DNA of 64,000 nt from Burkholderia metallica (GTDB lineage: Bacteria > Pseudomonadota > Gammaproteobacteria > Burkholderiales > Burkholderiaceae): the NCBI RefSeq assembly GCF_902832845.1, contig NZ_CADFDB010000007.1:1-64000 (forward strand), given 5' to 3'. The position numbers were made by a program, and so were the translations under genes. Shown piece by piece: positions 17,311 through 31,601 of the stretch; the stretch's first letter is position 1; each line of letters starts with the position of its first letter. The notes beneath the pieces were generated by a model that did no database searches, was not told where the DNA came from, and was given only the letters and a program-made list of their open reading frames with translations.

Positions 17311-18903
17311 GTGCTTTCTACTGCCAACATCACGATGCAATTCGGGCCGAAGCCCTTGTTCGAGAATATCTCGGTCAAATTCGGCGAGGGCAACCGCTAT
17401 GGTCTGATCGGCGCGAACGGCTGCGGCAAGTCGACGTTCATGAAGATCCTCGGCGGCGACCTCGAGCCGAGCGCCGGCAACGTCGCGCTGGAACCGAACG
17501 TCCGTCTCGGCAAGCTGCGCCAGGACCAGTTCGCATACGAAGACGTGCGCGTGCTCGACGTCGTGATGATGGGCCACACCGAGATGTGGGCCGCGATGAC
17601 CGAGCGCGACGCGATCTACGCGAACCCGGAAGCCACCGACGACGACTACATGCACGCGGCCGAGCTCGAAGGCAAGTTCGCCGAATACGGCGGCTACGAC
17701 GCCGAGGCGCGCGCGGGCGCGTTGCTGCTCGGCATCGGCATCGAGGAAAAATTCCACAACGGCACGATGAGCGACGTCGCGCCGGGCTGGAAGCTGCGCG
17801 TGCTGCTCGCGCAGGCGCTGTTCTCGAAGCCGGACGTGCTGCTGCTCGACGAACCGACCAACAACCTCGACATCAACTCGATCCGTTGGCTCGAGCACAC
17901 GCTCAACGAGTACAACTCGACGATGATCATCATCTCGCACGATCGTCACTTCCTGAACTCGGTGTGCACGCACATGGCCGACATGGACTTCGGCACGCTG
18001 AAGGTCTGGCCGGGCAACTACGACGACTACATGCTCGCGTCGGCCCAGGCGCGCGAGCGCCAGGCCGCGGCGAACGCACGGGCGAAGGAGCGCGTGGCCG
18101 AACTGCAGGACTTCGTGCGCCGCTTCTCGGCGAACAAGTCGAAGGCGCGCCAGGCGACCAGCCGTGCCAAGCAGATCGACAAGATCAAGATCGAGGAATT
18201 CAAGCCGTCGTCGCGCCAGAACCCGTTCATCCGCTTCGAGTTCGAGAAGAAGCTGCACAACGTCGCGGTGGTGGCGGAAGAGATCACGAAGAAGTACGAA
18301 CGCACGATCTTCCAGAACTTCAACCTGTCGGTGCAGCCGGGCGAGCGCATCGCGATCATCGGCGAGAACGGCGCGGGCAAGACGACGCTGCTGCGCTCGT
18401 TGCTCGGCGCGCTCGCGCTCGACCACGGCACGGTGAAGTGGTCCGAGAACGCGAATGTCGGCTACATGCCGCAGGACACGTACGAGGAGTTCCCGGACGA
18501 CATCACGCTGATGGACTGGATCGACCAGTACCGCAAGGACGGCGACGACGAAACGATGGTGCGCGGCACGCTGGGCCGCCTGCTGTTCTCGTCGGACGAC
18601 ATCAAGAAGTCGGTGAAGGTGCTGTCGGGCGGCGAGAAGGGCCGCATGATCTGGGGCAAGCTGATGCTTGGCCGCCATAACGTGCTGCTGATGGACGAGC
18701 CGACCAACCACATGGACATGGAATCGATCGAGTCGCTGCAGATCGCGCTCGAGCAGTTCGAAGGCACGCTGATTTTCGTGTCGCACGACCGTGAGTTCGT
18801 GAGCGGGCTGGCGAACCGGATCATCGAAGTGCGCACGGACGGCACGCTGTTCGACTTCGGCGGGAATTATGAGGAGTTCCTGACGAGTCAGGGGCAGGAG
18901 TAA
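17311..18903 (+). CDS. ybiT: ABC-F ATPase YbiT (ribosome-associated)
   Basis: A 530-residue soluble protein with two ABC domains, the same length as E. coli YbiT. Domain 1 has GANGCGKST and [11 protein letters not shown]. Domain 2 has [18 protein letters not shown] and the [11 protein letters not shown] box. Between them lies the P-site tRNA-interaction linker (about residues 240-325, Arg/Lys/Ala-rich). ABC-F proteins bind the ribosomal E site and act on stalled or specialised translation. GTG at 17311 is chosen because the family begins MLSxxNITMQFG; longer in-frame readings lack homology. Confidence 0.93.
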
Positions 18904-18990
18904 GTGTCCTGACGCTTCCTTTCATGTGCCGCGGCTTCGCAATACGAAGCCTGCGCGCATAGACCGAAGCCGCGAGCCGGAATCTCTCGG

Positions 18991-19025
18991 GCCCGCATCG
19001 ACAGCGTAGTCGAGGCGGGCTTTTT
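18991..19025 (+). terminator. Rho-independent terminator after ybiT
   Basis: GCCCGCATCGA and TCGAGGCGGGC arms (one mismatch), an 8-nt loop and TTTTT. It closes the ybiT transcript before the biosynthetic cluster. Confidence 0.8.
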
Positions 19026-19153
19026 CATTTCCACGCATTCCCGCGCGGACGAAGCCCGGCTGCATCGCGCATTCCCGTTTCCTCGCATCGACCGACTTCG
19101 GGTAAATTACGCTCCGGATACCTCCCTCAATTCCGACCCGGAGCCGCCCCTCG

Positions 19154-19903
19154 ATGCAGGACCGTCCTTTGCCGCTCGACCTGTCCGGCCTTGCGCCAAG
19201 CCTGTACGCGCAGGGCACCGAGGAGGGCATCCTGTCGCGCCTGATGGAGCGGATCGCGCCGATCCACCGCTTCTGCGTCGATGTCGGCGCGAGCGACGGC
19301 CTGCGCAACAGCAACACGGCGCGCCTGTTGCGTGAACGGGAATGGTCCGGCGTGTTGGTGGAAGGCAGTGCGTACCGTTTCGGCAAGCTGGCCGCGCATT
19401 ACGCCGGCGCGAGCCGCGTTCGATTGCACCACGACCGCGTTCAGCCCGACACGATCGACACGTTGCTCGCCGATGCGGGCACGCCACCCGACTTCGACCT
19501 GCTGTCGATCGACATCGACGGCAACGACTACTGGGTGTGGCGCGGCCTGCAGGCGTTTCAGCCGCGCATCGTCGTGATCGAATACAACCCGTACTACACG
19601 CCGCCCGAGCGCTGGGTCATGTGCTTCAATCCAGACCACGAATGGGACGGGTCGACCTATTACGGCGCGAGCCTCGAATCGCTCGTTCACCTCGGCCGGC
19701 AGAAGGGTTATGAACTCGTCTGCTGCGACGACATGGGCAACAACGCGTTCTTCGTGCGGCAGGATCTGTATCCGCTGCTCGGCATCGCGAACAACGCTAC
19801 TTCGGTGCTGTTCCGCCCGGCGATGTACAAGGTGCGCTACGTCGGTCACAACACGTTCCTGAGCGGCCATCCGTATCGCTACGGGCCGGCCGAGGCTATC
19901 TGA
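19154..19903 (+). CDS. FkbM-like SAM-dependent methyltransferase
   Basis: A 249-residue soluble protein. SAM motif I is FCVDVGASDGLRNSNTARLL at about residues 39-58, then WSGVLVEG. DLLSIDIDGNDYWVW is the post-motif acidic loop, and VVIEYNPYYTP follows. These are FkbM-family features; such enzymes often O-methylate sugars or polyketides. It is the first gene of a tightly packed run: its stop is directly followed by the ATG of the next gene. GGAG at 19140-19143 supports ATG 19154. The substrate is unknown. Confidence 0.75.
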   Translation: MQDRPLPLDLSGLAPSLYAQGTEEGILSRLMERIAPIHRFCVDVGASDGLRNSNTARLLREREWSGVLVEGSAYRFGKLAAHYAGASRVRLHHDRVQPDTIDTLLADAGTPPDFDLLSIDIDGNDYWVWRGLQAFQPRIVVIEYNPYYTPPERWVMCFNPDHEWDGSTYYGASLESLVHLGRQKGYELVCCDDMGNNAFFVRQDLYPLLGIANNATSVLFRPAMYKVRYVGHNTFLSGHPYRYGPAEAI

Positions 19904-20896
19904 ATGGACTCGCTCGCCGCGACCTTCGACGAGATCCGCGATGCCTATGCGCTGCGCCGCAGCGGGCCGCCGCGCCAGGTCGGCGAACGCGTGTGGCACC
20001 TGCCGACCGACGACGGCGGCGTAGCGGTCAAGCTTTACGCGTCCGAACATCGCGCGCGAGCGGCGAAGGAAGCTGCCGTGCTCGCGCACTTCGAGACGCA
20101 CGGCGATGCACGCTTCCATGTGCAGACACTGAAACGCACGGCAGACGGCGCACCGCTGTGGACGGGAGCGAACGAACACGCGATGCTGACGCGCTGGGAA
20201 ACCGGGCGGTTCAGAACCTACGACACGTTTTCGCCGGCCGAATGGGCGGCGCTGGGCACGAGTCTCGGCGCGTTGCACACGAGTCTCGAACGGCTTCATC
20301 TGCCGCAGATCGACACGATCCACGCACGGCTGGCGGCGATCGACGCGGACGCGGTACGCCGCAGCCTGCTCGACGCGCTGGATCGCGTGCGCTCGCACGA
20401 CGGCGCCGACAGCCTGCGCCGCTATGTCGATCTCGCGCTGCGCCTGCTCGAGCGCTACTATCCGGGCAGCATCGACGCGTTTCCCGCCGACGATCCGCAG
20501 CACCCGATCCACAATGATTACAACCAGTTCAACTATCTGTTCACGGGCGCGCTGCCGCCGCTGATCGTCGACTGGGAAGCGTCGATCGGCGCGCCGCGCG
20601 AATACGAACTGGTGCGGTGCCTGAACCATCTGCCGCTGGAGGCGCCGCACCTCGCGCAAGCGTTCGTGCGCGCGTATCGGCGGGCCCGGCCCGTGGACCC
20701 GGCGCGCATTGCATGGGCGGTCGATGCCGCGTGCGTGCAGCACGCGCTGAAGCTCTGGATCGTGCAAGGCTGGCTCGACGAACCGTCGCGTTTCGCATCG
20801 CATCTGAACGGCGCGGTGACGATGGCGTCCGCGATGGTGGATGCGCGCGAGCGTCTCGTCGATTTCTTTTCCCGTTGTGTGGACGCAGGACGCTGA
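19904..20896 (+). CDS. APH/choline-kinase-fold phosphotransferase
   Basis: A 330-residue protein with the aminoglycoside phosphotransferase fold. The catalytic loop is HNDYNQFNYLF (Asp acting as base, Asn binding metal), and the metal-binding motif IVDWEASIG follows. The N-lobe has GVAVKLYASEH with the ATP-binding lysine and AKEAAVLAHFE with the paired Glu. Family members phosphorylate aminoglycosides, choline, homoserine or related small hydroxyl substrates. It starts on the base after the preceding stop. A second kinase of this fold is found at 24728. The substrate is unknown, and a resistance role is not implied. Confidence 0.8.
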   Translation: MDSLAATFDEIRDAYALRRSGPPRQVGERVWHLPTDDGGVAVKLYASEHRARAAKEAAVLAHFETHGDARFHVQTLKRTADGAPLWTGANEHAMLTRWETGRFRTYDTFSPAEWAALGTSLGALHTSLERLHLPQIDTIHARLAAIDADAVRRSLLDALDRVRSHDGADSLRRYVDLALRLLERYYPGSIDAFPADDPQHPIHNDYNQFNYLFTGALPPLIVDWEASIGAPREYELVRCLNHLPLEAPHLAQAFVRAYRRARPVDPARIAWAVDAACVQHALKLWIVQGWLDEPSRFASHLNGAVTMASAMVDARERLVDFFSRCVDAGR

Positions 20897-20897
20897 C

Positions 20898-21776
20898 GTG
20901 AATGCGAATCTGAACCGGATTGCGAATCCGCCGCCGCCGGCCGAGCGGCAGCATGTGTTTCCGCCGCCGCTGGATCGCGATTACCGCGTCGAAGACGGGC
21001 GCGTGCTGACGCGCTCGCTGGAAGCGCACATCGTCGATCACTGCAACCTGACCTGCGCGGAATGCTGCTCGCTGTCGCCGCTGCTGCCGGCGTGGTACGC
21101 GCGCCCCGAATCGATCGAGACCGATCTGCGCATCGCCGCGAAGGTGCTGCGCCCGCGCATGTTCAAGCTGGTCGGCGGCGAACCGCTGCTGCATCCGGCG
21201 CTCGTCGAACTCGTCGAGCGCGTGCGCGCCACCGGCATCGCACCGGTGATCTCCGTGACGACGAACGGCCTGAAGCTTGGCGAGATGTCCGACGCGTTCT
21301 GGCAGGCGGTGGATGCGCTGACGATCTCGCGTTACCCGAAACCGGCGCTGTCGTCCGACCTGGTCGCGCACGTCGAGCGTCAGGCGGCGCGCTTCGACGT
21401 GCGCCTGAACTGGAAGGTGCAGGACGTGTTCACGACGATGAACCGTGCGCAGCCCGGCACGGATCGCGACGCCGCCCGGCGCCTTTATCACGATTGCTGG
21501 ATCCGGGAGCGCTGCCATATGATTCGCGACGGCATGTTCTACACGTGCACGCGTCCCGCGCATTTCCATACGCTCTACAACGGCGCGAAGGATTTTCAAG
21601 CGGACGGCCTGCGGCTGCGCGACGATGCGGACATGCTCGATGCGATGCTCGCGTATCTGCAACGCGAGGCGCCGCTCGAAGCGTGCCTGCATTGCCAGGG
21701 CGGCAGCGCGCCGGTGGCGCCGCATCGCATCCTCAAACGCATTGAAGTGGACACCCTGAAGGCTCGTTATCCATGA
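20898..21776 (+). CDS. radical SAM enzyme with C-terminal cysteine-rich (Twitch/SPASM-like) domain
   Basis: A 292-residue enzyme. Cys49, Cys53 and Cys56 form the CNLTCAEC cluster motif. GGEP (residues 93-96, in KLVGGEPLLHP) binds SAM. Cys200, Cys206, Cys217, Cys263 and Cys266 could ligate an auxiliary iron-sulfur cluster as in Twitch/SPASM proteins such as BtrN. It probably performs radical chemistry on the cluster's small-molecule substrate. GTG at 20898, one base after the previous stop, is chosen; an in-frame ATG at 20841 would overlap the kinase by 56 bp. It overlaps the next gene by ATGA. Confidence 0.8.
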   Translation: MNANLNRIANPPPPAERQHVFPPPLDRDYRVEDGRVLTRSLEAHIVDHCNLTCAECCSLSPLLPAWYARPESIETDLRIAAKVLRPRMFKLVGGEPLLHPALVELVERVRATGIAPVISVTTNGLKLGEMSDAFWQAVDALTISRYPKPALSSDLVAHVERQAARFDVRLNWKVQDVFTTMNRAQPGTDRDAARRLYHDCWIRERCHMIRDGMFYTCTRPAHFHTLYNGAKDFQADGLRLRDDADMLDAMLAYLQREAPLEACLHCQGGSAPVAPHRILKRIEVDTLKARYP

Positions 21777-22843
21777 TCGTCGGCACGCGCGACCTGTTCG
21801 GTTTCGATCGTCTGCACTACCATCCGCGCACCGGCGTGTCGGCGTCCGGCATCCGCGCCGTACTGCATGCGTCGGGGCAGCCGGCCGGCGCGCCGGACAC
21901 GGCCGCCATCGCCGGTTACCTGAGCGGCGAGCGTCCGGTCGACCGCACCGTGCTGCGCGATGTGCTCGCGGTGCCGCCCGGCCATGCGCTGATCCGTTCG
22001 CCGCAAGGGCTGACGGTGCAGCCGACGCCCGAACGGCCGCAGCGCGCCGATCTGGAAACCGTGCTGCGCGCATCGCTGCAGCGCGCGCTCGACAGCGGCA
22101 AGCGGGTGGCGCTGGCGCTGAGCGGCGGGCTCGATTCGGCGCTGCTGCTGGCGTTGCTGCGCGAGCTCGGCACGCAGCGGCACGTAACGTCCTACATTCT
22201 CGCGACCGACATGCCGGACTACTGCGAACTCGACGCGGCGCTCGAGCTGGCCGAGCAGATGCAGGCGAACGTGAAGCTCGTGCGTGCGAACGAGGCCGAC
22301 TTCGTGGCCGCGCTGCCGCGAACGACGCATGCGGTCGAGGAACCGATGTTCAACCTGCATCCGGTCGCCAAGCTGCTGCTGGCCGAGGCGATGGCCGCGG
22401 ACGGCGTCGAGGTGGCCATCACCGGCGACGGCGCGGACCAGGTGTTGCGCCGCGACCAGTCGGCCAACTACCTGCCGCTGTGCCATGCGTTGTTCGATGC
22501 GGCGGCGGTCGACCTGCATCCGCCGTTTGTCGACGATGCGGTCGTCGCGCATCTGACGAGCATCGCGCCCGACCCGAACAAGCAGTGCCTGCGCGATCTG
22601 GGCGCGCGCCTGAACCTGCCGGAGCGTCTCGTGCACGGCCCCAAGCGCGGGCGGCTCGCCCCGGCGATGGACCTCGCGGCACTGCTCGATCGCGACCGCG
22701 CGTACGCGCTGGCCGACACGCTCGGTCTTGCCGCGCCCACGCTGCAGGCGGATACCGAACGCGTGCTGTGGACGACGCTGATGCTGATCCTCGATCATCT
22801 CGACCACTTCGATCATCGCGATGCCGCGCATCGCCCAACCTGA
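21773..22843 (+). CDS. asparagine-synthetase-like ATP-dependent amide ligase lacking the glutaminase cysteine
   Basis: A 356-residue protein. The PP-loop SGGLDS at residues 117-122 binds ATP. GDGADQ at 218-223 matches the GDGGDE motif of asparagine synthetase. Residues 1-80 look like a shortened N-terminal Ntn domain, but residue 2 is not cysteine, so it cannot release ammonia from glutamine. That makes it more like beta-lactam or carbapenam synthetases and other AsnB-like amide ligases, which join an amine to an adenylated carboxylate. It overlaps the radical SAM gene by 4 bp. The substrate is unknown. Confidence 0.78.
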   Translation: MIVGTRDLFGFDRLHYHPRTGVSASGIRAVLHASGQPAGAPDTAAIAGYLSGERPVDRTVLRDVLAVPPGHALIRSPQGLTVQPTPERPQRADLETVLRASLQRALDSGKRVALALSGGLDSALLLALLRELGTQRHVTSYILATDMPDYCELDAALELAEQMQANVKLVRANEADFVAALPRTTHAVEEPMFNLHPVAKLLLAEAMAADGVEVAITGDGADQVLRRDQSANYLPLCHALFDAAAVDLHPPFVDDAVVAHLTSIAPDPNKQCLRDLGARLNLPERLVHGPKRGRLAPAMDLAALLDRDRAYALADTLGLAAPTLQADTERVLWTTLMLILDHLDHFDHRDAAHRPT

Positions 22844-22850
22844 GCCGTTC

Positions 22851-24056
22851 ATGAAACGCATCCTGTTCTGCGTGGTGCCCGAAAAAGGGCACGTCAATCC
22901 GTGTATCGGCCCGGCGCAGCATCTGCGCGCCGCCGGCTGCGACGTCGCGTTCTATGCGCCGGCCGACATCAGCGCGCAGCTCGATGGCGCCGGCGGCTTC
23001 GCGTTCGTCGGGCCGCGCGAGACGCCCGAACGCCACGACCTGTCGCGCGGCGCGAGCTTCGCCGCGAACATTCGCGACGCCGACTGGTTGCGGCACTGGA
23101 TCCGCACGCTGCTGATCGACCTCGCGCCCGCGCAGGTCGACGGTATCCGCGCGGTCCTGCGCGAATGGCAACCGGACGTGGTCGTGATCGATCCGCTGCT
23201 CTATGCGGCGGCGATTGCGGCCGAGCTGGAAGGGCTGCCGTGGGTCTCGATGTCCAATTCGCTGAATCCGGTGTTGCCGGACGATCTCGATTCGGAGCTG
23301 CTGCGCACGGTACGCTGGCTCGCACCGGAACGCACGCGCCTGTTCGCGCGCTACGGCCTTGACGCGCGTTTTCGCGGTTGCGACATCCTGTCGCCGCATC
23401 TGACGCTCGCGTTCACGACCGACGCGCTGGTCGGTGCGCCGCCGCAAGGTATCGAACTGGTCGGCCCCGCGCTGCCGTCCGGCCCGCGCGGCGACGAGAC
23501 GGCGTTCCAGTGGGAACGCCTCGATGCGGATCGCCCGCTCGTCTACATGTCGCTCGGCAGCCAGCTTTACTACCATCCCGACGTATTTGCGAAGGTCATC
23601 GAAGCCACGCGCGCGACGTCGGCGCAACTGGTGCTGTCGGTGGGCGAACTGGTCGATTCGGATCTGCTGCCGACCGGTGACGAGCGCGTCGTCGCGGTGC
23701 GTTATGTGCCGCAACTGGCGCTGCTGCGGCGCACGCACGCGTTCGTCAGCCACGGCGGCGCGAATTCGGTGATGGAGTCGCTCGCGTGCGGTGTGCCGAT
23801 GCTGCTGTCGCCGTTCTGCAACGACCAGTTCCATTCGGCCCATTTCGTCGAGCGGGCCGGTGCCGGATGCGTACTGGATCTGCAGCAGGCCGGCGTGACG
23901 GACATTACCGATGCGCTCGAACGCCTGTTGCGTCCCGGTTCGTTGCGCGAGCATGCGGCGAGAATCCGTGCGAGCTACGCGCGCGATGGTTCGGCGCAGG
24001 CCGCGCGCCTGATCAGCGCACTCGCTTCAGGAAGCCGCCTGGCGACAGCGTCATGA
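22851..24056 (+). CDS. GT1/MGT-family glycosyltransferase
   Basis: A 401-residue GT-B-fold transferase. The N-terminal half has VPEKGHVNPCIGPAQHLRAAG, the acceptor-side GHV(N)P motif of macrolide-type glycosyltransferases. The C-terminal donor half has VYMSLGSQ, VPQLALLRRTHAFVSHGGAN, and the MESLACGVPMLLSPFCNDQ stretch, which binds the nucleotide sugar. Such enzymes glycosylate small molecules in the cytoplasm. ATG 22851 is 7 bp after the previous stop; an in-frame ATG at 22821 is possible. Its last 44 bp overlap the end of the convergent methyltransferase gene. Confidence 0.85.
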   Translation: MKRILFCVVPEKGHVNPCIGPAQHLRAAGCDVAFYAPADISAQLDGAGGFAFVGPRETPERHDLSRGASFAANIRDADWLRHWIRTLLIDLAPAQVDGIRAVLREWQPDVVVIDPLLYAAAIAAELEGLPWVSMSNSLNPVLPDDLDSELLRTVRWLAPERTRLFARYGLDARFRGCDILSPHLTLAFTTDALVGAPPQGIELVGPALPSGPRGDETAFQWERLDADRPLVYMSLGSQLYYHPDVFAKVIEATRATSAQLVLSVGELVDSDLLPTGDERVVAVRYVPQLALLRRTHAFVSHGGANSVMESLACGVPMLLSPFCNDQFHSAHFVERAGAGCVLDLQQAGVTDITDALERLLRPGSLREHAARIRASYARDGSAQAARLISALASGSRLATAS

Positions 24057-24702
24057 GCACGCGGTCCTCGATGTCCTCGTCGACCTCGAACCGGTCGTCG
24101 CGGGCGAGAAATTCGCGCACGGCCGTAGCCGGGTTGTTGCCTTTGCCGTACTGCTTGCCGTCGAACATCGATGCCGGCAAGTACTCCATGATGGTGTCCA
24201 TCACGATCGCGTAGCTGCCGGGCGTCACGAGTGGCGCATAGCATTCGAGTTCGCGCAGCACGTGTGAGTGGGTATGCGCGAGATCGAGGATTGCCATCAC
24301 GCGCGCGCCGTCGCCGATCTGCGCGCGCACCGACGCGAGCGTGTCGGCCGCGCACGATTCACCTTCGATCAGCACCATGCGATGGGCGAGCCGGTGCGAT
24401 TGCAGGCGTTGCCTGACCTCGTCGCGCAGGCGCGGTTCGATCGCGACGACGCGGCCGCGCTCGCCCGCCAGTTCCAGCATCGACGCGGAGAACACGACAC
24501 CACCGCCCGCCGCGATGCCGGTCTGCACGATGCAGTCGGGGCGCGCGCGCCAGATCAGTTCCTGGAGCGCGAGCATGTCGCCGGGCAGATGGAAGAAGCG
24601 CTCGCCGAGCCAGCGCGTCTGGAACAGATGGTCGAATTCGGCAGCGCGCGTCAGCCATTCGATGTTGATGTCCCGCATGCGGGCCGAAGGACGCTCTGAC
24701 AT
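24013..24702 (-). CDS. CmcI-like methyltransferase (cephalosporin hydroxylase family)
   Basis: A 229-residue SAM-dependent enzyme. The pattern is that of the CmcI/rhamnosyl O-methyltransferase family: QTGIAAGGGVVFSASMLEL, VVAIEPR, then LDLAHTHSHVLRELECYAPLVTPG, and MEYLPASMF..QYGKGNNPATAVREFL. Members methylate hydroxyl groups of sugars or antibiotics. It is transcribed leftward, against the five-gene run, and its 3' end overlaps the glycosyltransferase. ATG at 24702 is chosen; an in-frame TTG at 24708 exists. Its start codon overlaps a possible ATG of the divergent kinase. Confidence 0.8.
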   Translation of the reverse strand: MSERPSARMRDINIEWLTRAAEFDHLFQTRWLGERFFHLPGDMLALQELIWRARPDCIVQTGIAAGGGVVFSASMLELAGERGRVVAIEPRLRDEVRQRLQSHRLAHRMVLIEGESCAADTLASVRAQIGDGARVMAILDLAHTHSHVLRELECYAPLVTPGSYAIVMDTIMEYLPASMFDGKQYGKGNNPATAVREFLARDDRFEVDEDIEDRVLMTLSPGGFLKRVR

Positions 24703-24727
24703 GGTCAATGCAACGAATAGGAGTGGT

Positions 24728-25696
24728 GTGAAAACGCTGGAATCCTGGCTTCACCGGCACTGGAACCTCGGGCCGGCGCGCATGCAGGCGCTGTCGTCGG
24801 GCCATACTAACAAAACGTATCTCGTCGAGTGCGATGCGGCGCGCGCGGTGCTGCGCGTGTCGTGGTCCGGCAAACCGGTCGAGCAGGTGCATCGCGAGGC
24901 GGCGATACTCGGCCATCTGGGCCGCTCGCGCACGGCGCCGATGCTGCCTGCGTTGCCGCGATTGCGGCCGACCGTGGACGTGCAATCCGGTGTGCAGGCG
25001 CCCGATGGAAGCTGGCTGCATCTGTTCGAGCATATCGACGGCAGTCCCGGCTTGCCCGACGATGCGCAGGCAGGCGCGATCGATGCGATGCGCGCACTCG
25101 CGCATCTGCATGCGTCGCTGGCGGCGATCCCCGCGAGCGAATCCGCGCCGCTGGCATGGCTGACGGCGCGCCATGCGCGCGTCTCGGCACGCGCGACGCC
25201 GTCGTTGCCGGCCGACTTGAGCAGCCATTACGACACGATGATCCGGCGGATCGGCGCGCATCTCGACGCCGCGGCCCGCTGGCTGACGGGGCCGGTGCAT
25301 TGGCTGCACGGCGACTATCACGCGGGCAACCTGCTGTACGTGGGCCACGCGGTGAACGGCGTGCTCGATTTCGACGATGTCGGGCAGGGCGCGCAGTGGC
25401 TCGAGGCGGCCTTTGCGCTGTTCGCGCTGTCCCGCGATGCGGGCAGGGACGATCGCTTCGTGTTCGATACGCAACGATGGGAAGTCGGCCTGCAGACCTA
25501 TGCGGCGACGCGGCGCGATGCTGCGCCGGACTGGATGCGCGACAACCGCGCTGCGCTGATGGCCCTGTTCTGCGCGGACCAGACGCTGATTCATCTGGAA
25601 GCCGCCCAGCGCGGCCTGTGGATGCCGGGGCCCGGCATCGGATTTCTCGGTGGCTGGCGGCAGTTGCTGGACGGTGCGACGCCCGGAAGCTGGTAG
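24728..25696 (+). CDS. APH/homoserine-kinase-II-fold phosphotransferase
   Basis: A 322-residue kinase of the APH fold, distinct from the one at 19904. ALSSGHTNKTYLVEC is the nucleotide loop, HGDYHAGN at residues 194-201 the catalytic loop, and LDFDDVG near 213-219 the metal motif. The pattern is closest to homoserine kinase II/ChoK-like enzymes. GTG 24728 is chosen because AGGAG at 24719-24723 precedes it. An in-frame ATG at 24701 would overlap the start codon of the divergent CmcI-like gene by two bases. The substrate is unknown. Confidence 0.78.
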   Translation: MKTLESWLHRHWNLGPARMQALSSGHTNKTYLVECDAARAVLRVSWSGKPVEQVHREAAILGHLGRSRTAPMLPALPRLRPTVDVQSGVQAPDGSWLHLFEHIDGSPGLPDDAQAGAIDAMRALAHLHASLAAIPASESAPLAWLTARHARVSARATPSLPADLSSHYDTMIRRIGAHLDAAARWLTGPVHWLHGDYHAGNLLYVGHAVNGVLDFDDVGQGAQWLEAAFALFALSRDAGRDDRFVFDTQRWEVGLQTYAATRRDAAPDWMRDNRAALMALFCADQTLIHLEAAQRGLWMPGPGIGFLGGWRQLLDGATPGSW

Positions 25697-25707
25697 GTCC
25701 CCCTGCG

Positions 25708-26283
25708 TCAGTCCCGGCGATTCAGGAACAGGCGCACGGCTTCGACCGTGTTGGGTCGCGCTTCTCCATGCCGTGATCCATCGTGCATGCAGAACAGCAC
25801 GTCGCGATGCTGTGCCGCGCTGTCGGCGACATGTGCGCGCATCGTGTCGCACAGCGCCTGGGGCGACGGCGCCGGGCGCTGCCAGTCGTCCAGTATCGCG
25901 GTCCAGCCCGTGTGTTCGCGCCGCAGCCGCGCGAGCACGCCGGCGCGATTGTCCTGCGGCATCAGTCCGTAAGGAAGGCGCAGCGGGATCGCGGCCGGTG
26001 CGGGTACGCCGGCCCGGCGATAGGCCTCGCGAATCAGCGCGTCGGTCGCCTCGATCTCGTTGATCAGCGCGTCGTCCGGCAACGCGCCCGGCCTTGCATG
26101 CGAATGGGTGTGATTGCCGAGCCGATGACCTTCGCGCGCCATTCGCGCCGCGACGTCGAGCGCGCCCGCCAGGTTCCGGCCGAGCAGGAAGAAGGTCGCC
26201 TCGCACGACGCGGCGTGCAGCACGTCGAGCAAGGGCGGTGTCGACGGGCCCGGGCCGTCGTCGAAACTGAGGCGTATGGACAT
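25708..26283 (-). CDS. NodB-fold polysaccharide deacetylase-like protein
   Basis: A 191-residue carbohydrate esterase 4 domain. Motif 1 is LSFDDGP at residues 5-11 (Asp8 base, Asp9 metal). Motif 2 is HTHSH at residues 58-62, with the two metal histidines. RLPYG is motif 3. A final histidine in CMHDG completes the set. There is no signal peptide or membrane segment, unlike peptidoglycan deacetylases, so a cytoplasmic small-molecule or oligosaccharide substrate is likely. It converges on the kinase gene 12 bp away and probably belongs to the same functional cluster. Confidence 0.82.
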   Translation of the reverse strand: MSIRLSFDDGPGPSTPPLLDVLHAASCEATFFLLGRNLAGALDVAARMAREGHRLGNHTHSHARPGALPDDALINEIEATDALIREAYRRAGVPAPAAIPLRLPYGLMPQDNRAGVLARLRREHTGWTAILDDWQRPAPSPQALCDTMRAHVADSAAQHRDVLFCMHDGSRHGEARPNTVEAVRLFLNRRD

Positions 26284-26423
26284 CGCGTGGAGGGCGCGCC
26301 GTGTGAGTGGAACCTGAACGATAGCGCAATCCGACGGCTGACCGGGCGAGCCTCGTCAGTGAGCGGAAGCGTGCGGACCCAACGCGGCCGGCCGACACCG
26401 CCCGTGCTCAAGCGTTGAATCGC

Positions 26424-27233
26424 TCAGGCGTCGCAAGCAAGCGCTGGCTCGTCCGGAATCGCCCGCTCCGCCAGCGCGACGTAATCGCCCGACGCCGTGC
26501 GCTCGACCCTTGCATCGACCCGGTACGCGCGCCGCAGGTTCGGCGGCGTCAGCACGTCGGCCGGTGCGCCGTCCGCGACGAGTCCGTCGGCGCTCAGCAG
26601 CACGAGCCGGTCGCAGAAACGCGATGCGAGATTCAGGTCGTGCATCGCGACCAGCACGATCGCGCCGCGCCGGCGGGCCGCGTCGCCGACCGCCTCCAGC
26701 GCGAGCAATTGCCAGCGCAGGTCGAGCGCGCTGGTCGGTTCGTCGAGCAGCAGCAGCGGCGTGTCGCGCACGAGCACCTGCGCGAGCCCGACCATCTGCC
26801 GCTGGCCGCCCGACAACCGGTCGAGCGGCGACATCGCCAGCGGGTGCAGCCGCAGCCGCGTGAACACCTGTTGCAAACACCGGTCGTGCGTCGCGTCGGA
26901 CAGGCCGCCGCAGGTGGCGCGCAACGCGCTGCGCACGGCTTCATAGACGAGCAGCGACGACGGTTGCGGCAAGGTCTGCGGCAGATAGCCGACCTGCCGC
27001 GTGTGCTCGCGGCGCGACCCGGACAGCAGGTCGAAGCTGCCGAATGCCGCGCGACCGGTCGCGGACGCGAGCCGCGCCAGCGCGCGCAGCAGCGTCGACT
27101 TGCCGACGCCGTTCGGCCCGAGCAGCCCGATCGTCGTGCCCGGCTCGACTGGCGCGAGCGACAGCTCGTCGAGCACGACCCGGGCGCCGTAGCGGACGCA
27201 CAGCGCGTCGAGTTGCAGCATCGGCTCAGCCAT
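26424..27233 (-). CDS. iron-siderophore ABC transporter ATP-binding protein
   Basis: A 269-residue FepC/FecE-type ATPase. Walker A is LGPNGVGKST, the signature is RLSGGQRQMVGLAQ, and Walker B is LLLLDEPTSALD. The H-loop is in AMHDL. It energises import of the ferric siderophore through the permease encoded just upstream, with which it overlaps by 8 bp. It is the last gene of a leftward four-gene operon that begins at a Fur box near 30400. Confidence 0.9.
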   Translation of the reverse strand: MAEPMLQLDALCVRYGARVVLDELSLAPVEPGTTIGLLGPNGVGKSTLLRALARLASATGRAAFGSFDLLSGSRREHTRQVGYLPQTLPQPSSLLVYEAVRSALRATCGGLSDATHDRCLQQVFTRLRLHPLAMSPLDRLSGGQRQMVGLAQVLVRDTPLLLLDEPTSALDLRWQLLALEAVGDAARRRGAIVLVAMHDLNLASRFCDRLVLLSADGLVADGAPADVLTPPNLRRAYRVDARVERTASGDYVALAERAIPDEPALACDA

Positions 27234-28290
27234 CGAGCCTCCTGCGCCGGCTGACGAGCAGCATGAACAGCGGCACGCCGACCAGCGCGGTGATGATGCC
27301 GATCGGCAGCGTCACGCCGGGGATCAGCGTCTTGCTGAGCACGGACGCGCCGGCCAGCATGATCGCGCCGGCGAGCGCCGCGCCCGGCAGGTAGTAGCGA
27401 TGCTCGTCGCCGACCAGCAGCCGCGCGACGTGCGGCCCGACGAGGCCGACGAAACCGATCGTACCGACGAACGACAGTGCCGTCGCGGACAGCAGGCTGA
27501 TGCGCGCGAGCGCGACGAGTCGCAGCCGTTCGACCGCGATGCCCATGCTGCGCGCCTGCTCGTCGCCGGCGCGCAGCGCCGTCAACGACGCGACGTCGAC
27601 ACTCGCCCACAGCGTGCAGGTGGCGAATACGCAGGTCAGCAGCACGATCTTGCCCCATGTCGCGCGCGCCAGGCTGCCCATGCTCCAGAACACGATCTGC
27701 TGCAACGCATTCGCGTCGGCGATGAATTGCAGCAGCCACAGCAGGGCCTCGAAGCTGAACATCAGGCCAATGCCGAACAGCACGACGGTCTCGGTCGTCG
27801 CGCCGTGGCGCCACGCGAGCCAGACGATCAGCAGCGTCGCGGCGCTCGCGCACGCGAACGCGCCGAGCGACAGCGCGACGTTCTCGTTCCACAGCACCAG
27901 ATGCCAGCCGGAAATCACGACGAGCGATGCGCCGACGCTCGCGGCGGCCGACATGCCGAGCGTGAACGGGCTCGCGAGCGGGTTGTTCAGCACGGTCTGC
28001 ATTTCGGCGCCGGCGAACCCGAGCGACGCGCCGACGAGCACGGCCATCAGCGCATACGGCAGGCGCACGTCCCACAGGATCACGCGCTGTTCGAGCGGCA
28101 GCCCGCCGGGCCGGAACAGGCCGCCGAGCAGGTCGGCGACCGGGAACGGCGACGGGCCGGTCGAGACGTCGACGACGAGCAGCGCGACGAGCACGCCTGC
28201 GAGCACGACGAGCGCACCGACACGTCGTGCGGCGACCGCGCGGTAGCGAAGTCGCAGCGACGGAGATGAAACGGGTGTCGTCGTGCTCAT
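27226..28290 (-). CDS. iron-siderophore ABC transporter permease (FecCD family)
   Basis: A 354-residue membrane protein of the FecCD/BtuC family, with about ten hydrophobic segments. Family motifs include WDVRLPYALMAVLVGASLGFAG, MQTVLNNPLASPFTLG and the coupling-region GTIGFVGLVGPHVAR stretch. Only one permease gene is present, so the transporter is probably a homodimer rather than the FepD/FepG pair of enterobactin systems. It overlaps the upstream esterase gene by ATGA and the downstream ATPase gene by 8 bp. Confidence 0.9.
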   Translation of the reverse strand: MSTTTPVSSPSLRLRYRAVAARRVGALVVLAGVLVALLVVDVSTGPSPFPVADLLGGLFRPGGLPLEQRVILWDVRLPYALMAVLVGASLGFAGAEMQTVLNNPLASPFTLGMSAAASVGASLVVISGWHLVLWNENVALSLGAFACASAATLLIVWLAWRHGATTETVVLFGIGLMFSFEALLWLLQFIADANALQQIVFWSMGSLARATWGKIVLLTCVFATCTLWASVDVASLTALRAGDEQARSMGIAVERLRLVALARISLLSATALSFVGTIGFVGLVGPHVARLLVGDEHRYYLPGAALAGAIMLAGASVLSKTLIPGVTLPIGIITALVGVPLFMLLVSRRRRLDG

Positions 28291-29228
28291 GTGGCCGCTC
28301 CGGATGCGGGCTCGAAAACCACGCGTGATGCAAGCGCGAGGCTCGGCAGCACGACGCCGCCATGATCTTCGCCGTCGATCAGCCGGAACGCGGCGTCGAG
28401 CCCCGAGCGGCCGCCCACCCGCGCGACGAAGTCGCGGGCGGAACTGACCTGCTTGCGCGCCTGCTGGCGGCGCATCCGTTCGGCGTCGGGGTTCGGTGCA
28501 TCTTCCTCGAGGCAGCCTGCGGTCACGAGGACGCGCAGCGGTGGTGCGAGCGGCGCGGCTTGCGCGGCGAACCGGTCGGCATAAGGCAGCAGCATGCGCT
28601 CGCCCCACCAGATCGACGGGCTTGCGGCCACGTAGCGCCGAAACAGGTGCGCGCGCGTGAGCATCGCGTACAGCGTCAGCAGCCCGCCGTACGAGTGGCC
28701 GAACAGCGTCTGCCGCTCGGAGTCGACCGGCAACTGGCGGGCGAGCCACGGTTGCACGTCGTGCTCGATGAAGTCGAGAAAGCGGTCCGCGACGACGCCG
28801 CGCCCGTTCGGCAACGGCGCGAGCGTGTAGTCATCCGCGCGCGCGGCCATGTCGTAGGGCCCGTCGACCGGATAGCCGATGCCTATCACGACTGCCTCGG
28901 CGTCGCGCGTGCCGTCCGGCCGCGCGCGGCGATTGCGGGTGAGTTGCGCCGCGAGCGGGAACAGCGCGTTACCGTCGAGCACGGTGAGCACCGGATGGGG
29001 CGCCGAGCCAGAACGCTCGGCCGGCAACGCGACGAACAGACGCCGCGTGCGGCCGGCGATCGTCACATCGAACTGGCGGCTGTTCGGCACGAAGACCGGC
29101 GGCGCGGCGTCGAGGCCGGGCCACGCACGCGCATCGGCGGCACACGCGGGCGCGAGCCGGCCGCCGAGCGGGCCGGCCAAGCCGGCGACGAGCAGGGAGC
29201 GGCGCATGGAGGAGGCGGGCATCCGCAT
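28287..29228 (-). CDS. exported alpha/beta hydrolase of the siderophore esterase (IroE/Fes-like) type
   Basis: A 313-residue hydrolase. Residues about 9-31 form a signal peptide with an MRRSLLVAGLAG start, possibly Tat-type, placing it in the periplasm. The nucleophile is in GHSYGGLLTLY, and the likely catalytic histidine is in GEDHGGV. SPSIWWGE is a feature of the IroE/BesA esterase group, which hydrolyses trilactone siderophores. ATG 29228 sits one base after the upstream stop. If the native siderophore is a lysine amide, this enzyme may act on xenosiderophores, which is an open question. Confidence 0.78.
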   Translation of the reverse strand: MRMPASSMRRSLLVAGLAGPLGGRLAPACAADARAWPGLDAAPPVFVPNSRQFDVTIAGRTRRLFVALPAERSGSAPHPVLTVLDGNALFPLAAQLTRNRRARPDGTRDAEAVVIGIGYPVDGPYDMAARADDYTLAPLPNGRGVVADRFLDFIEHDVQPWLARQLPVDSERQTLFGHSYGGLLTLYAMLTRAHLFRRYVAASPSIWWGERMLLPYADRFAAQAAPLAPPLRVLVTAGCLEEDAPNPDAERMRRQQARKQVSSARDFVARVGGRSGLDAAFRLIDGEDHGGVVLPSLALASRVVFEPASGAAT

Positions 29229-29229
29229 G

Positions 29230-30369
29230 TCAGGACCCTTCCTGCACCCAGTATTCGCCTTGCAGCGCAACGGGCTGGAAGCGTCGCACCATCGTGTCGA
29301 ACGTGGCGCGCGGATCGAGATCGGCGAACAGCGCCGGATGCAGCCACTTGGCCATCGCCTGCACGGCGACGACGTTGAACGGCGAATTGTAGAAGTGATG
29401 CCAGATCGCATACGCGCGCCGCTCGCGGACCGCGCGCAGCGGCGCGATCTGCGGTCGCTTCAGCGAACGGTCGAGCGAGCGGACGGCGGCGTCGCGCGGC
29501 ACGCCGGCGCCGAGCGCGAGGCGTTGCGGCGCGCTTTGCAGCGTCTGGAGCGAGCCGATCGCGGTGCCGATGTAGAAATCGGGCTGGCGGCTCAGCAGGT
29601 ATTCGGGGTTCAGCGTGCCGTGCTCGCCGGGCACACGGCCCTTCGCGACGTTGTTGCCACCGGCGGCGTCGAGCAGGTGGCCCATCATGCCGGTCATCGT
29701 GTCGCAGCAGTCGCCCGACAGGCCGACACGGCTTTCGAGGAACACGCTCGGCGCGGCGGGGCGCGCGGTCGCGAGCCGCGTGCGGACGAGGTTGAGCTGC
29801 TGCTGCCAGTACGCATTGAATTCCGTCGCGCGCTGCGGCGCGCCGAGCACCTGGCCGAGCAGCGCGATGCTGCGCGGCGTGTTGGCGAGCGGGTCGTGCC
29901 GGAAGTCGACGAACACGATCGCGACGCCGGCCGCCTCGAGCCGCGCGAGCGTTTCGCGATCGCGCTCGCCGGGGCCGTGGCCGCCGCCGAGCCCGAAGAT
30001 CGCGACCTGCGGGCGCAGCGCGAGCGCGCGCTCGTCGCTGAAGCTGCCGGACTGCGAGCGTCCGATGCGCGGCACGTCCTTCAGGCGCGGGAAACGCGTG
30101 AGCCATTGCGCGTAGCTCGCGGGATCGAGTTGCTCGAAATCACCCATCATGCCCACGAGGCGGCGCGTCGGATCGCCGCCGTCGACCACCGCCAGCGCCG
30201 GCAGCAGGCGGCCCTCGCCGAGCAGCACGCGCTCGACGCGCGCGGGAATCCGAACCTGCCGGCCGGCCAGGTCGGTGACGGTCGTGGTGTCCGCCTGCGC
30301 GGCCTGCATCGCGAACCAGCCGCACAGCCATACGCCCAGCATGACCCATATTCCACTTGTCTTTCTCAC
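29230..30369 (-). CDS. periplasmic iron-siderophore-binding protein
   Basis: A 379-residue class III solute-binding protein (FepB/BtuF fold). Residues 1 to about 28 form a signal peptide ending AMQAAQA. TTTVTDLAGRQVRIP is the typical first beta hairpin, followed by RVERVLLGEGR. A long helix joins the lobes. GTG at 30369 is the start, with GGGAG at 30374-30378 on the minus strand just before it. It delivers the ferric siderophore to the FecCD-type permease. It is the first gene of the leftward operon, directly downstream of a strong Fur box. Confidence 0.85.
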   Translation of the reverse strand: MRKTSGIWVMLGVWLCGWFAMQAAQADTTTVTDLAGRQVRIPARVERVLLGEGRLLPALAVVDGGDPTRRLVGMMGDFEQLDPASYAQWLTRFPRLKDVPRIGRSQSGSFSDERALALRPQVAIFGLGGGHGPGERDRETLARLEAAGVAIVFVDFRHDPLANTPRSIALLGQVLGAPQRATEFNAYWQQQLNLVRTRLATARPAAPSVFLESRVGLSGDCCDTMTGMMGHLLDAAGGNNVAKGRVPGEHGTLNPEYLLSRQPDFYIGTAIGSLQTLQSAPQRLALGAGVPRDAAVRSLDRSLKRPQIAPLRAVRERRAYAIWHHFYNSPFNVVAVQAMAKWLHPALFADLDPRATFDTMVRRFQPVALQGEYWVQEGS

Positions 30370-30387
30370 GTGACTCCCGATACGATA

Positions 30388-30410
30388 TAAATGAGAACAA
30401 TTCTCATTTA
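30388..30410. promoter_or_regulatory. Fur box between the transport operon and the AraC gene
   Basis: A perfect palindrome with 10-bp arms, TAAATGAGAA and TTCTCATTTA, around a 3-base centre. It contains the AATGAGAA/TTCTCATT core of the Fur consensus. It lies 18 bp upstream of the binding-protein GTG and about 100 bp upstream of the AraC-type gene, so iron-loaded Fur could repress both directions. Confidence 0.9.
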
Positions 30411-30512
30411 ATTGTAGCCGAGCCGATGCCGCGACTGGGGCGTCGGTTGTTTGATCGAACACCAAAATAGTTTGCGCGGGCGCAAGAGGCCTGCGCGCGG
30501 GGGTATGACGAC

Positions 30513-31484
30513 ATGACAGCGCTGACGCCAGCCGCTTCCCATTCCGATCGCTATCGACACGATGCGCACGTCGCGCGGATCCGCGAGGTGCGGCCCGGGC
30601 TGCGCATCCATTCGGACGATGCAACGGACGAATTCGACGCCGTGATGTCGGGGCAGTGTTCGCCGGGCCTGCATCTCGTGCTGCTGCTCGAGGGTGCGCT
30701 CGACGTGTCGTACGGCGACCGGCGCGTGGTGCTGACGACGGACGGGCGGCGGACCGGCCGTGCCGGCCGCGAAGCCGCGCGGCCCGCGGTGCGGATGCAG
30801 TCGTTCCTGCTCAACGCGGTCGAGCCGGACACGTTCCGCAGGCGGCTCAGCAAGGGCGGTTACGCGCGGCGGCTGAGCCTCGCGATGTCGGGCGAATGGC
30901 TCGGTCATCTGCAGGAGGCCAGCCGCGGCGTCCTGCCCGAACAGCTCGGCGCGATGCTGTCCGCGCATCTCGCGATCCGCTTCTGGCAGCCGACGCCGCG
31001 CGCGACGGCGCTCGCCGAGCAGATCGTGCGGCCGCCGGCCTATCAGCCGATGCTGCAGGCGATCTATCTGGAAAGCCGCGTGCTCGAACTGCTCGCCGAG
31101 GCGTTCACGCCGCTCGAGAGCGACGCGGCGCAGGCGTCGGACGCGTCGCTCGGGTCGCGCGACTATCGCCGGATGGCTGAGCTGCGCGCGTTCCTCGCGA
31201 GCGACGCGGCGCAGGAACTGTCGCTCGACGACATCGCGCGGCACGCCGGGATGAGCGCGAACGCGATGCAGCGCCAGTTCCGCGCGGCCTACGGTACGAC
31301 CGTGTTCGACTTCGTCCGCGAACATCATCTGCAGCGCGCGCGGCTCGCGCTCGAGCGCGACGCCGTGAGCGTGAAGCAGGCCGCGGCGCTGGCCGGCTAC
31401 ACGAGCGCCGCGAACTTCGCGACGGCCTACAAGCGCCGCTTCGGCGTCACGCCGACGCTCGCGCGGCGCAGCGACCGGCGCTGA
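30513..31484 (+). CDS. AraC-family transcriptional regulator of the siderophore locus (PchR-like)
   Basis: A 323-residue regulator. The N-terminal part (about 1-200) is a sensor domain. The C-terminal AraC domain has two helix-turn-helix motifs at about residues 220-318 (LSLDDIARHAGMSANAMQRQF, then VKQAAALAGYTSAANFATAYKRRFG). It resembles PchR-type regulators, which sense the ferric siderophore and activate receptor and synthesis genes. Its position between the transport operon and the TonB receptor supports this. ATG 30513 is the first reasonable start. Confidence 0.85.
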   Translation: MTALTPAASHSDRYRHDAHVARIREVRPGLRIHSDDATDEFDAVMSGQCSPGLHLVLLLEGALDVSYGDRRVVLTTDGRRTGRAGREAARPAVRMQSFLLNAVEPDTFRRRLSKGGYARRLSLAMSGEWLGHLQEASRGVLPEQLGAMLSAHLAIRFWQPTPRATALAEQIVRPPAYQPMLQAIYLESRVLELLAEAFTPLESDAAQASDASLGSRDYRRMAELRAFLASDAAQELSLDDIARHAGMSANAMQRQFRAAYGTTVFDFVREHHLQRARLALERDAVSVKQAAALAGYTSAANFATAYKRRFGVTPTLARRSDRR

Positions 31485-31559
31485 CGACGGCCGGCGACGG
31501 CGCTCAAACGACTTCGATGCTTACGCAAAGATTTCGGTTGATTACATGTTTCATAATGC

Positions 31560-31580
31560 AAATGAGAATCAATCACATTT
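31560..31580 (+). promoter_or_regulatory. Fur box upstream of the TonB receptor
   Basis: AAATGAGAATC followed by AATCACATTT: the left half matches the Fur consensus well, the right half less so. It is 21 bp upstream of the receptor ATG. Confidence 0.7.
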
Positions 31581-31601
31581 TGAAACATCGAAAGCGCCAC
31601 C

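Follow-up and report, generated by a model that had tools for sequence, protein, structure and literature searches.

Do the eight genes packed into positions 19154-26283 of this Burkholderia metallica sequence form a single pathway, and if so, what might they make? A first-pass annotation of the window, by which we mean the whole stretch of 64,000 nt analysed from contig NZ_CADFDB010000007.1, had marked them as an orphan biosynthetic cluster, and eight intact open reading frames (ORFs), here named genes A to H, do lie at these positions. They recur together in other genomes and are under purifying selection, and their families or folds and catalytic motifs can be recognised. From these observations we infer the substrates, the order of steps, the product and the transcription of the block, the best reading being a glycosylated, epimerised, O-methylated, acylated and phosphorylated aminosugar. 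On balance, we favour A-H as a complete, patchily distributed module whose cytosolic product would be one soluble, glycosylated metabolite of the aminosugar type.

Conservation of the block

A pattern scan with gene D of a genome collection in which 84,980 species are each represented by one genome, a method that finds only close relatives of D, returned 22 loci from the genera Burkholderia, Paraburkholderia, Trinickia and Bordetella. All of A-H, in identical order and with the same alternating orientation, were present in 21 of these; the remaining locus (L025) begins inside D at the end of a contig and carries D-H. Among seven additional genomes, four (L031, L032, L033 and L034) have the full block, counting as three since L032 is probably the organism of L020, and another (L035) runs from A to part of D, where its contig ends. 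When the ORFs of 16 loci were compared, nothing outside A-H was common to different genera except for matches at 29-40% identity, and we therefore take A-H to be the conserved unit; the three Bordetella loci have flanks in common with one another. The first-pass annotation had suggested that retention of at least five genes as a block would point to one pathway, and all eight are retained. Identity across the block orthologues of gene A is 78-94%.

Gene C was found in 31 of 65 Burkholderia genomes (one per species, the genus being judged from the nearest named loci) and in 24 of the 299 genomes of a family sample. Counting its own genome, it is present in 2 of 399, 2 of 369 and 1 of 398 genomes in samples of the order, class and phylum, which overlap with each other and with the family sample; beyond that genome, these three samples held only two distant relatives of C (33-35%). 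Plasmid searches gave no match for ligase D, kinase B or the DNA of genes A-E. The patchy presence and the differing flanks suggest loss and transfer of the whole block. A tree of A, C, E and F from 24 loci and the window, excluding L032 and the two loci with missing genes (L025 and L035), unites the Burkholderia sequences (support 0.999), several nodes in the rest of the tree being weak; it was rooted on Bordetella by choice, and hence is no test of the direction of transfer.

All eight genes are under purifying selection: against seven orthologues, the ratio of nonsynonymous to synonymous substitution rates (dN/dS, by a Nei-Gojobori-type method) is 0.08-0.35 in every gene, the two distant comparisons being rough (dS near 1, and near or above 0.7 for most genes). 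Gene E is the most constrained, at 0.08-0.12 against five Burkholderia orthologues, and B and G are among the least constrained in the comparisons with all seven.

Table 1. Positions of the eight genes and of associated sequence features in the window
Feature	Position	Strand	Description
Terminator-like hairpin and T run	18991..19025	+	After the ABC-F gene, outside the block; marks its upstream border; read by eye in an alignment
Candidate promoter of the block	19078..19110	+	TTTCCT ... GGTAAATTAC, about 45 bp upstream of gene A
Gene A	19154..19903	+	FkbM-type methyltransferase, 249 aa; PF05050, E 1e-8, above cut-off
Gene B	19904..20896	+	Putative APH-fold small-molecule kinase, 330 aa; HNDYNQFNYLF ... 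DWE motif
Gene C	20898..21776	+	HygY/SpeY-type twitch radical SAM protein, 292 aa; GTG start
Gene D	21773..22843	+	ATP ligase of the asparagine-synthetase/beta-lactam-synthetase type, 356 aa; N-terminal glutaminase half missing
Gene E	22851..24056	+	GT1 (MGT-like) glycosyltransferase, 401 aa; PF00201, E 2e-20, above cut-off
Gene F	24013..24708	-	CmcI/rhamnosyl O-methyltransferase family, 231 aa; PF04989, E 2e-62
Shared CATG	24700..24703	both	Head-to-head: ATG start of G (+) and an ATG of F (-)
Gene G	24701..25696	+	APH-family kinase, 331 aa; PF01636, E 3e-21
Gene H	25708..26283	-	NodB-type polysaccharide deacetylase, 191 aa; PF01522, E 2e-21

An interlocked layout

The first five genes, A-E, either overlap or are separated by 0-7 bp; the start of C is most likely the GTG at 20898, the alternative ATG at 20841 falling inside B. 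The last three genes had been described as spaced by 12-50 bp, but the arrangement partly consists of overlaps: E and F overlap by 44 bp tail-to-tail in the window, F and G share a CATG, and G and H converge to within 11 bp. The overlap of E and F is 44 bp in 25 of 26 sequences and 47 bp in L021. A CATG in frame for the starts of both F and G lies at their junction in 22 of the 26, the exceptions being L021, L023, L031 and L034; the best alignment for L023 began inside G, so the sharing may hold there as well. Gene F could start at TTG 24708 or ATG 24702, and since most sequences have an additional in-frame ATG deeper inside the gene, its true start is uncertain. In all sequences but that of L004, in which G is interrupted, G and H either overlap at their ends, by 4-36 bp, or leave a gap of 3-34 bp.

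Owing to the overlap of E with F and the CATG shared by F and G, there is no space for a separate intergenic promoter between these three genes. The layout, in which a reversed F lies between E and G, may couple their expression in a manner resembling a noncontiguous operon. In Staphylococcus aureus, menE-menC-MW1733-ytkD-MW1731 is described as an operon of this type (PMC7154746), and both arrangements have an opposite-strand gene interposed between the genes of one process; unlike in that example, the coding sequences of the block themselves overlap. The conserved overlaps would be a good test case for the antisense-coupled expression of a metabolic pathway.

Enzymes of the block and their possible product

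Pfam models score above their cut-offs for A (FkbM methyltransferase), D (Asn_synthase), E (UDPGT), F (RMNT_CmcI), G (APH) and H (Polysacc_deac_1). Among the matches listed (for gene C, the best 25 of 29), none of the eight proteins reaches an NCBIfam cut-off; E matches TIGR01426 below that of the model, as does H its best NCBIfam model, TIGR04243 NodB. No 19-residue mean hydropathy exceeds 1.65 in any of the eight, and no signal peptide is apparent, including in H, the chain of which begins MSIRLSFDDGPG. All of the proteins look soluble.

A surface glycan had been offered as an alternative product, but no positive support for it emerged from these profiles. The block would then be a decoration module that methylates, phosphorylates, deacetylates and acylates the sugars of an envelope polymer, whether a surface glycan, the lipopolysaccharide core or a glycolipid. 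The FkbM, CmcI/RMNT, NodB and glycosyltransferase families are found in glycan loci, and in the two neighbourhoods viewed, one on a Rhizobium and one on an Azospirillum plasmid, distant relatives of A have glycosyltransferase and sugar-nucleotide genes close by. Against this, Pfam reveals no flippase, polymerase, exporter, transporter or membrane-glycosyltransferase family among the eight proteins, which lack any strongly hydrophobic segment; nor is there a regulator family in the unit, in agreement with the first-pass annotation, which saw neither transporter nor regulator. The flanking ORFs vary between genera, and their first 60 residues, viewed by eye only, suggest no obvious glycan locus. 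The lack of a transporter in the block makes a surface glycan a poor fit, and we regard it as rather unlikely.

The protein encoded by gene C matches the Pfam radical S-adenosylmethionine (SAM) model Radical_SAM under its cut-off and Fer4_12 over it, and aligns across nearly the full chain of PDB 7wzv (profile E 1e-79), which we take to be SpeY. The three cysteines of its CX3CX2C radical SAM motif (Cys49, Cys53 and Cys56) are invariant in 15 of 15 alignment rows, as are Cys200, Cys217, Cys263 and Cys266 near the C terminus; the latter four are retained in 7wzv, and are predicted to be auxiliary-cluster ligands of the twitch type. The protein is also 38.9% identical to one encoded in a Streptomyces plasmid locus that holds a predicted gene for APH(7'')-Ia, a hygromycin B resistance gene. 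These matches relate C to enzymes of aminoglycoside pathways, as the first-pass annotation had anticipated in noting that a glycosyltransferase, a deacetylase and a Twitch-like radical SAM protein together recall aminoglycoside-type logic.

A further cysteine, Cys206, is found in all 15 rows and aligns with Cys183 of this Streptomyces protein, a HygY homologue from Streptomyces sp. SAT1, the position being Ser in 7wzv. As 7wzv nevertheless keeps the other four twitch cysteines, Cys206 looks surplus to cluster binding, and 183 is presumably the number of the catalytic hydrogen-donor cysteine of HygY. Given this alignment and the serine in 7wzv, C is predicted to be a sugar epimerase rather than the dehydrogenase that had been entertained as an option. 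Like HygY, SpeY and BtrN, from the hygromycin B, spectinomycin and butirosin pathways, C has the CX3CX2C motif and twitch cysteines, with an extra cysteine like that of the HygY homologue; unlike this homologue, to which it is about 38% identical, it is located in a proteobacterial block without aminocyclitol genes. According to the title of a paper cited in PMC10991966, whether HygY acts as an epimerase or a dehydrogenase depends on a single cysteine.

The sole PADLOC matches among the eight proteins were two viperin models (E 8e-11 and 4e-7), both hitting C over its radical SAM core; these were taken as general core similarity, and a phage-defence function was rejected. The HygY-like type of enzyme is found in a different context in a genome of the order (L029:6974-12994), where the gene for a distantly related radical SAM protein of this kind (33%) is followed downstream by genes for glycosyltransferase-like, PqqD-like and HprK-like proteins, as judged by eye.

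The relationship of C to HygY and SpeY would also suit a classical aminocyclitol aminoglycoside antibiotic pathway, with G and B as self-resistance kinases; G belongs to the APH family, and the fold neighbours of B include the spectinomycin kinase APH(9)-Ia. However, the families that Pfam finds in the block include no aminotransferase, no inositol dehydrogenase and no 2-deoxy-inosose synthase, the last of these having already been reported missing. C alone of the eight has a relative in the 26 kb Streptomyces stretch; a search of the Streptomyces plasmid with gene E, run without a positive control, also gave no match. Furthermore, the genome has no match to the inositol-phosphate synthase family PF07994, and its single DHQ-synthase-family match (PF01761) is presumably the shikimate gene. 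As no inositol-phosphate synthase was found in the genome, an antibiotic of this class fits poorly, and appears quite unlikely.

Ligase D has the fold and PP-loop (SGGLDS) of the AsnB/beta-lactam synthetase superfamily, in common with asparagine synthetase B, beta-lactam synthetase and carbapenam synthetase. It differs from these enzymes in lacking the glutaminase half, and is only 16-19% identical to the top structural rows. The chain starts MIVGTRD and matches TIGR01536 only from model position 137 of 517, and the NCBIfam alignment shows no N-terminal Cys glutaminase domain of the kind found in glutamine-hydrolysing asparagine synthetase. Since this half is missing, D is not expected simply to convert glutamine into a primary amide, which modifies the earlier proposal of amide formation. 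In two Bordetella ansorpii loci (L022 and L024), gene D has insertions of several tens of residues near the N-terminus, without counterpart in the other 12 aligned sequences.

The pairing of a radical SAM protein with an AsnB-like ligase is reminiscent of clusters for ribosomally synthesised and post-translationally modified peptides, or lasso-like peptides, in which D would be the cyclase; D is weakly similar to lasso and macrolactam cyclase models, and the distant C relative in L029 has a short PqqD-like protein beside it (by eye). Such a product is very improbable. The spacing within A-E leaves no room for a precursor gene, and between the ABC-F gene that precedes the block and A the sole forward-strand ORF of at least 20 aa encodes 27 aa (18926-19009) in a variable segment, the precursor having been looked for at the locus only. 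Moreover, C is nearest to a sugar-pathway enzyme.

Gene B has no Pfam kinase match, and nothing above a cut-off. Its HNDYNQFNYLF and DWE motifs are invariant in 15 of 15 sequences; APH-fold kinases carry a motif of the form HxDxxxxN and a metal-binding Asp. With this motif and a structural model of moderate confidence, which superposes with a large rmsd, B is assigned as a putative APH-fold kinase. The best structural neighbours of the model are N-acetylhexosamine 1-kinase and APH(9)-Ia, at only 8-14% identity.

In the aminosugar pathway that we favour, the starting materials would be sugar nucleotides of primary metabolism, from which the GT1 enzyme E would place a hexose or N-acetylhexosamine onto an acceptor. 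The cytosolic NodB-type deacetylase H would then remove an N-acetyl group to free an amine, and the HygY-type enzyme C may invert a single carbinol centre in the glycoside once it is assembled, Cys206 being the putative hydrogen donor. D could activate a carboxylate with ATP and acylate an amine instead of glutamine-derived ammonia, whilst the methyltransferases A and F would cap hydroxyls and the APH-type kinases B and G would phosphorylate the product or its intermediates, for activation or self-protection.

The same steps could alternatively make an intracellular, non-exported metabolite, such as a compatible solute, redox buffer or signal, by the logic of mycothiol and bacillithiol, the core steps of which are likewise glycosyl transfer, deacetylation and ATP-dependent amide formation by a glycosyltransferase, a deacetylase and an amide ligase. 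The eight soluble-looking proteins and the lack of an exporter or regulator family would agree with this. However, the deacetylase and ligase of the block fall outside the mycothiol and bacillithiol families, the additional epimerase, two methyltransferases and two kinases are alien to that logic, and a house-keeping solute would hardly be so patchy, with carriers making up 31 of 65 genomes of the genus. We consider such a metabolite unlikely.

Several points weigh against the aminosugar pathway itself. The donor and acceptor of E are not readable from its sequence, the model of B has a pLDDT of 70, falling below 50 across the motif-bearing residues 201-230, and B, G and H evolve faster than the other genes and may have an accessory role. 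Gene G of Burkholderia cepacia LK29 (L004:11920-12912) has one in-frame stop within an otherwise conserved stretch. The stretches fetched around the two distant C relatives (L029 and L030, 33-35%) contain no other block gene. With regard to C, the assignment of 7wzv as SpeY and the numbering of the HygY cysteine are presumptive, and the HygY homologue used was the SAT1 protein and not the published HygY. Finally, sigma-70 and terminator scans of 18850-26450 returned one promoter-like and two terminator-like sites, compared with 0.8 and 4.3 in shuffled sequences, so that neither exceeds the shuffled expectation.

The block is real and conserved, and consists of known enzyme families in a combination unmatched to a known pathway and in an unusual conserved layout. 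The first-pass annotation knew of no described pathway with this set; likewise, searches of the open-licence PMC literature aimed at the block found no description of it in titles and abstract starts. A bolder proposal, which we put forward as possible but doubtful, is that the product represents a new metabolite class, a phosphorylated, O-methylated, N-acylated glycoside whose rare sugar arises by late radical epimerisation of the HygY type outside the aminocyclitols, and that the interlocked, partly antisense layout, with its shared CATG and fixed 44 bp overlap, has kept the eight genes linked as they spread among Burkholderiaceae and Bordetella. If the favoured pathway is correct, 31 of the 65 Burkholderia genomes (one per species) would carry a complete, small and clean route to an undescribed natural product, and radical sugar epimerisation, to our knowledge familiar mainly from actinobacterial antibiotics, would extend to the Proteobacteria. 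As its borders are fixed and its eight enzymes seem to be soluble, the pathway should be amenable to reconstruction in vitro and its product findable.

Borders of the block and flanking genes

Downstream of the block in the window (26424-33797) are Fec-type iron-siderophore uptake genes, encoding an ABC ATPase, an FecCD permease, an esterase and a TonB receptor. Their membership of the unit was rejected, a FecE with at least 80% identity following the block in only 6 of 15 Burkholderia loci with all eight genes.

Upstream, an ABC-F gene precedes the block in the window. In all five block-less Burkholderia genomes fetched, from the 34 without gene C, DNA similarity continues through the ABC-F gene and ends no more than 6 bp from its stop codon; in two carriers, one Burkholderia and one of another genus, the block and the ABC-F gene are on separate contigs. 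The arms of the hairpin after this gene pair fully in 7 of 10 aligned rows and with one mismatch in the window, whilst the structure is absent in L005 and L009; it is missing from the list of the consensus terminator scan. The TTTCCT and GGTAAATTAC elements are both kept in 10 of 10 aligned Burkholderia rows, and by inference may be the block's own promoter, a candidate that the sigma-70 scan did not call.

In Burkholderia aenigmatica (L008:1435-5080), the interval from the ABC-F gene to the block has acquired an insertion of a serine recombinase and two genes matching the PtuA (E 5e-153) and PtuB (E 6e-94) models as a Septu-like pair, followed by a 38-residue copy of the 3' end of the ABC-F gene. 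Fragments of this 3' end also precede gene A in L005, L009 and L015, and this end of the gene looks like a hot spot for insertions.

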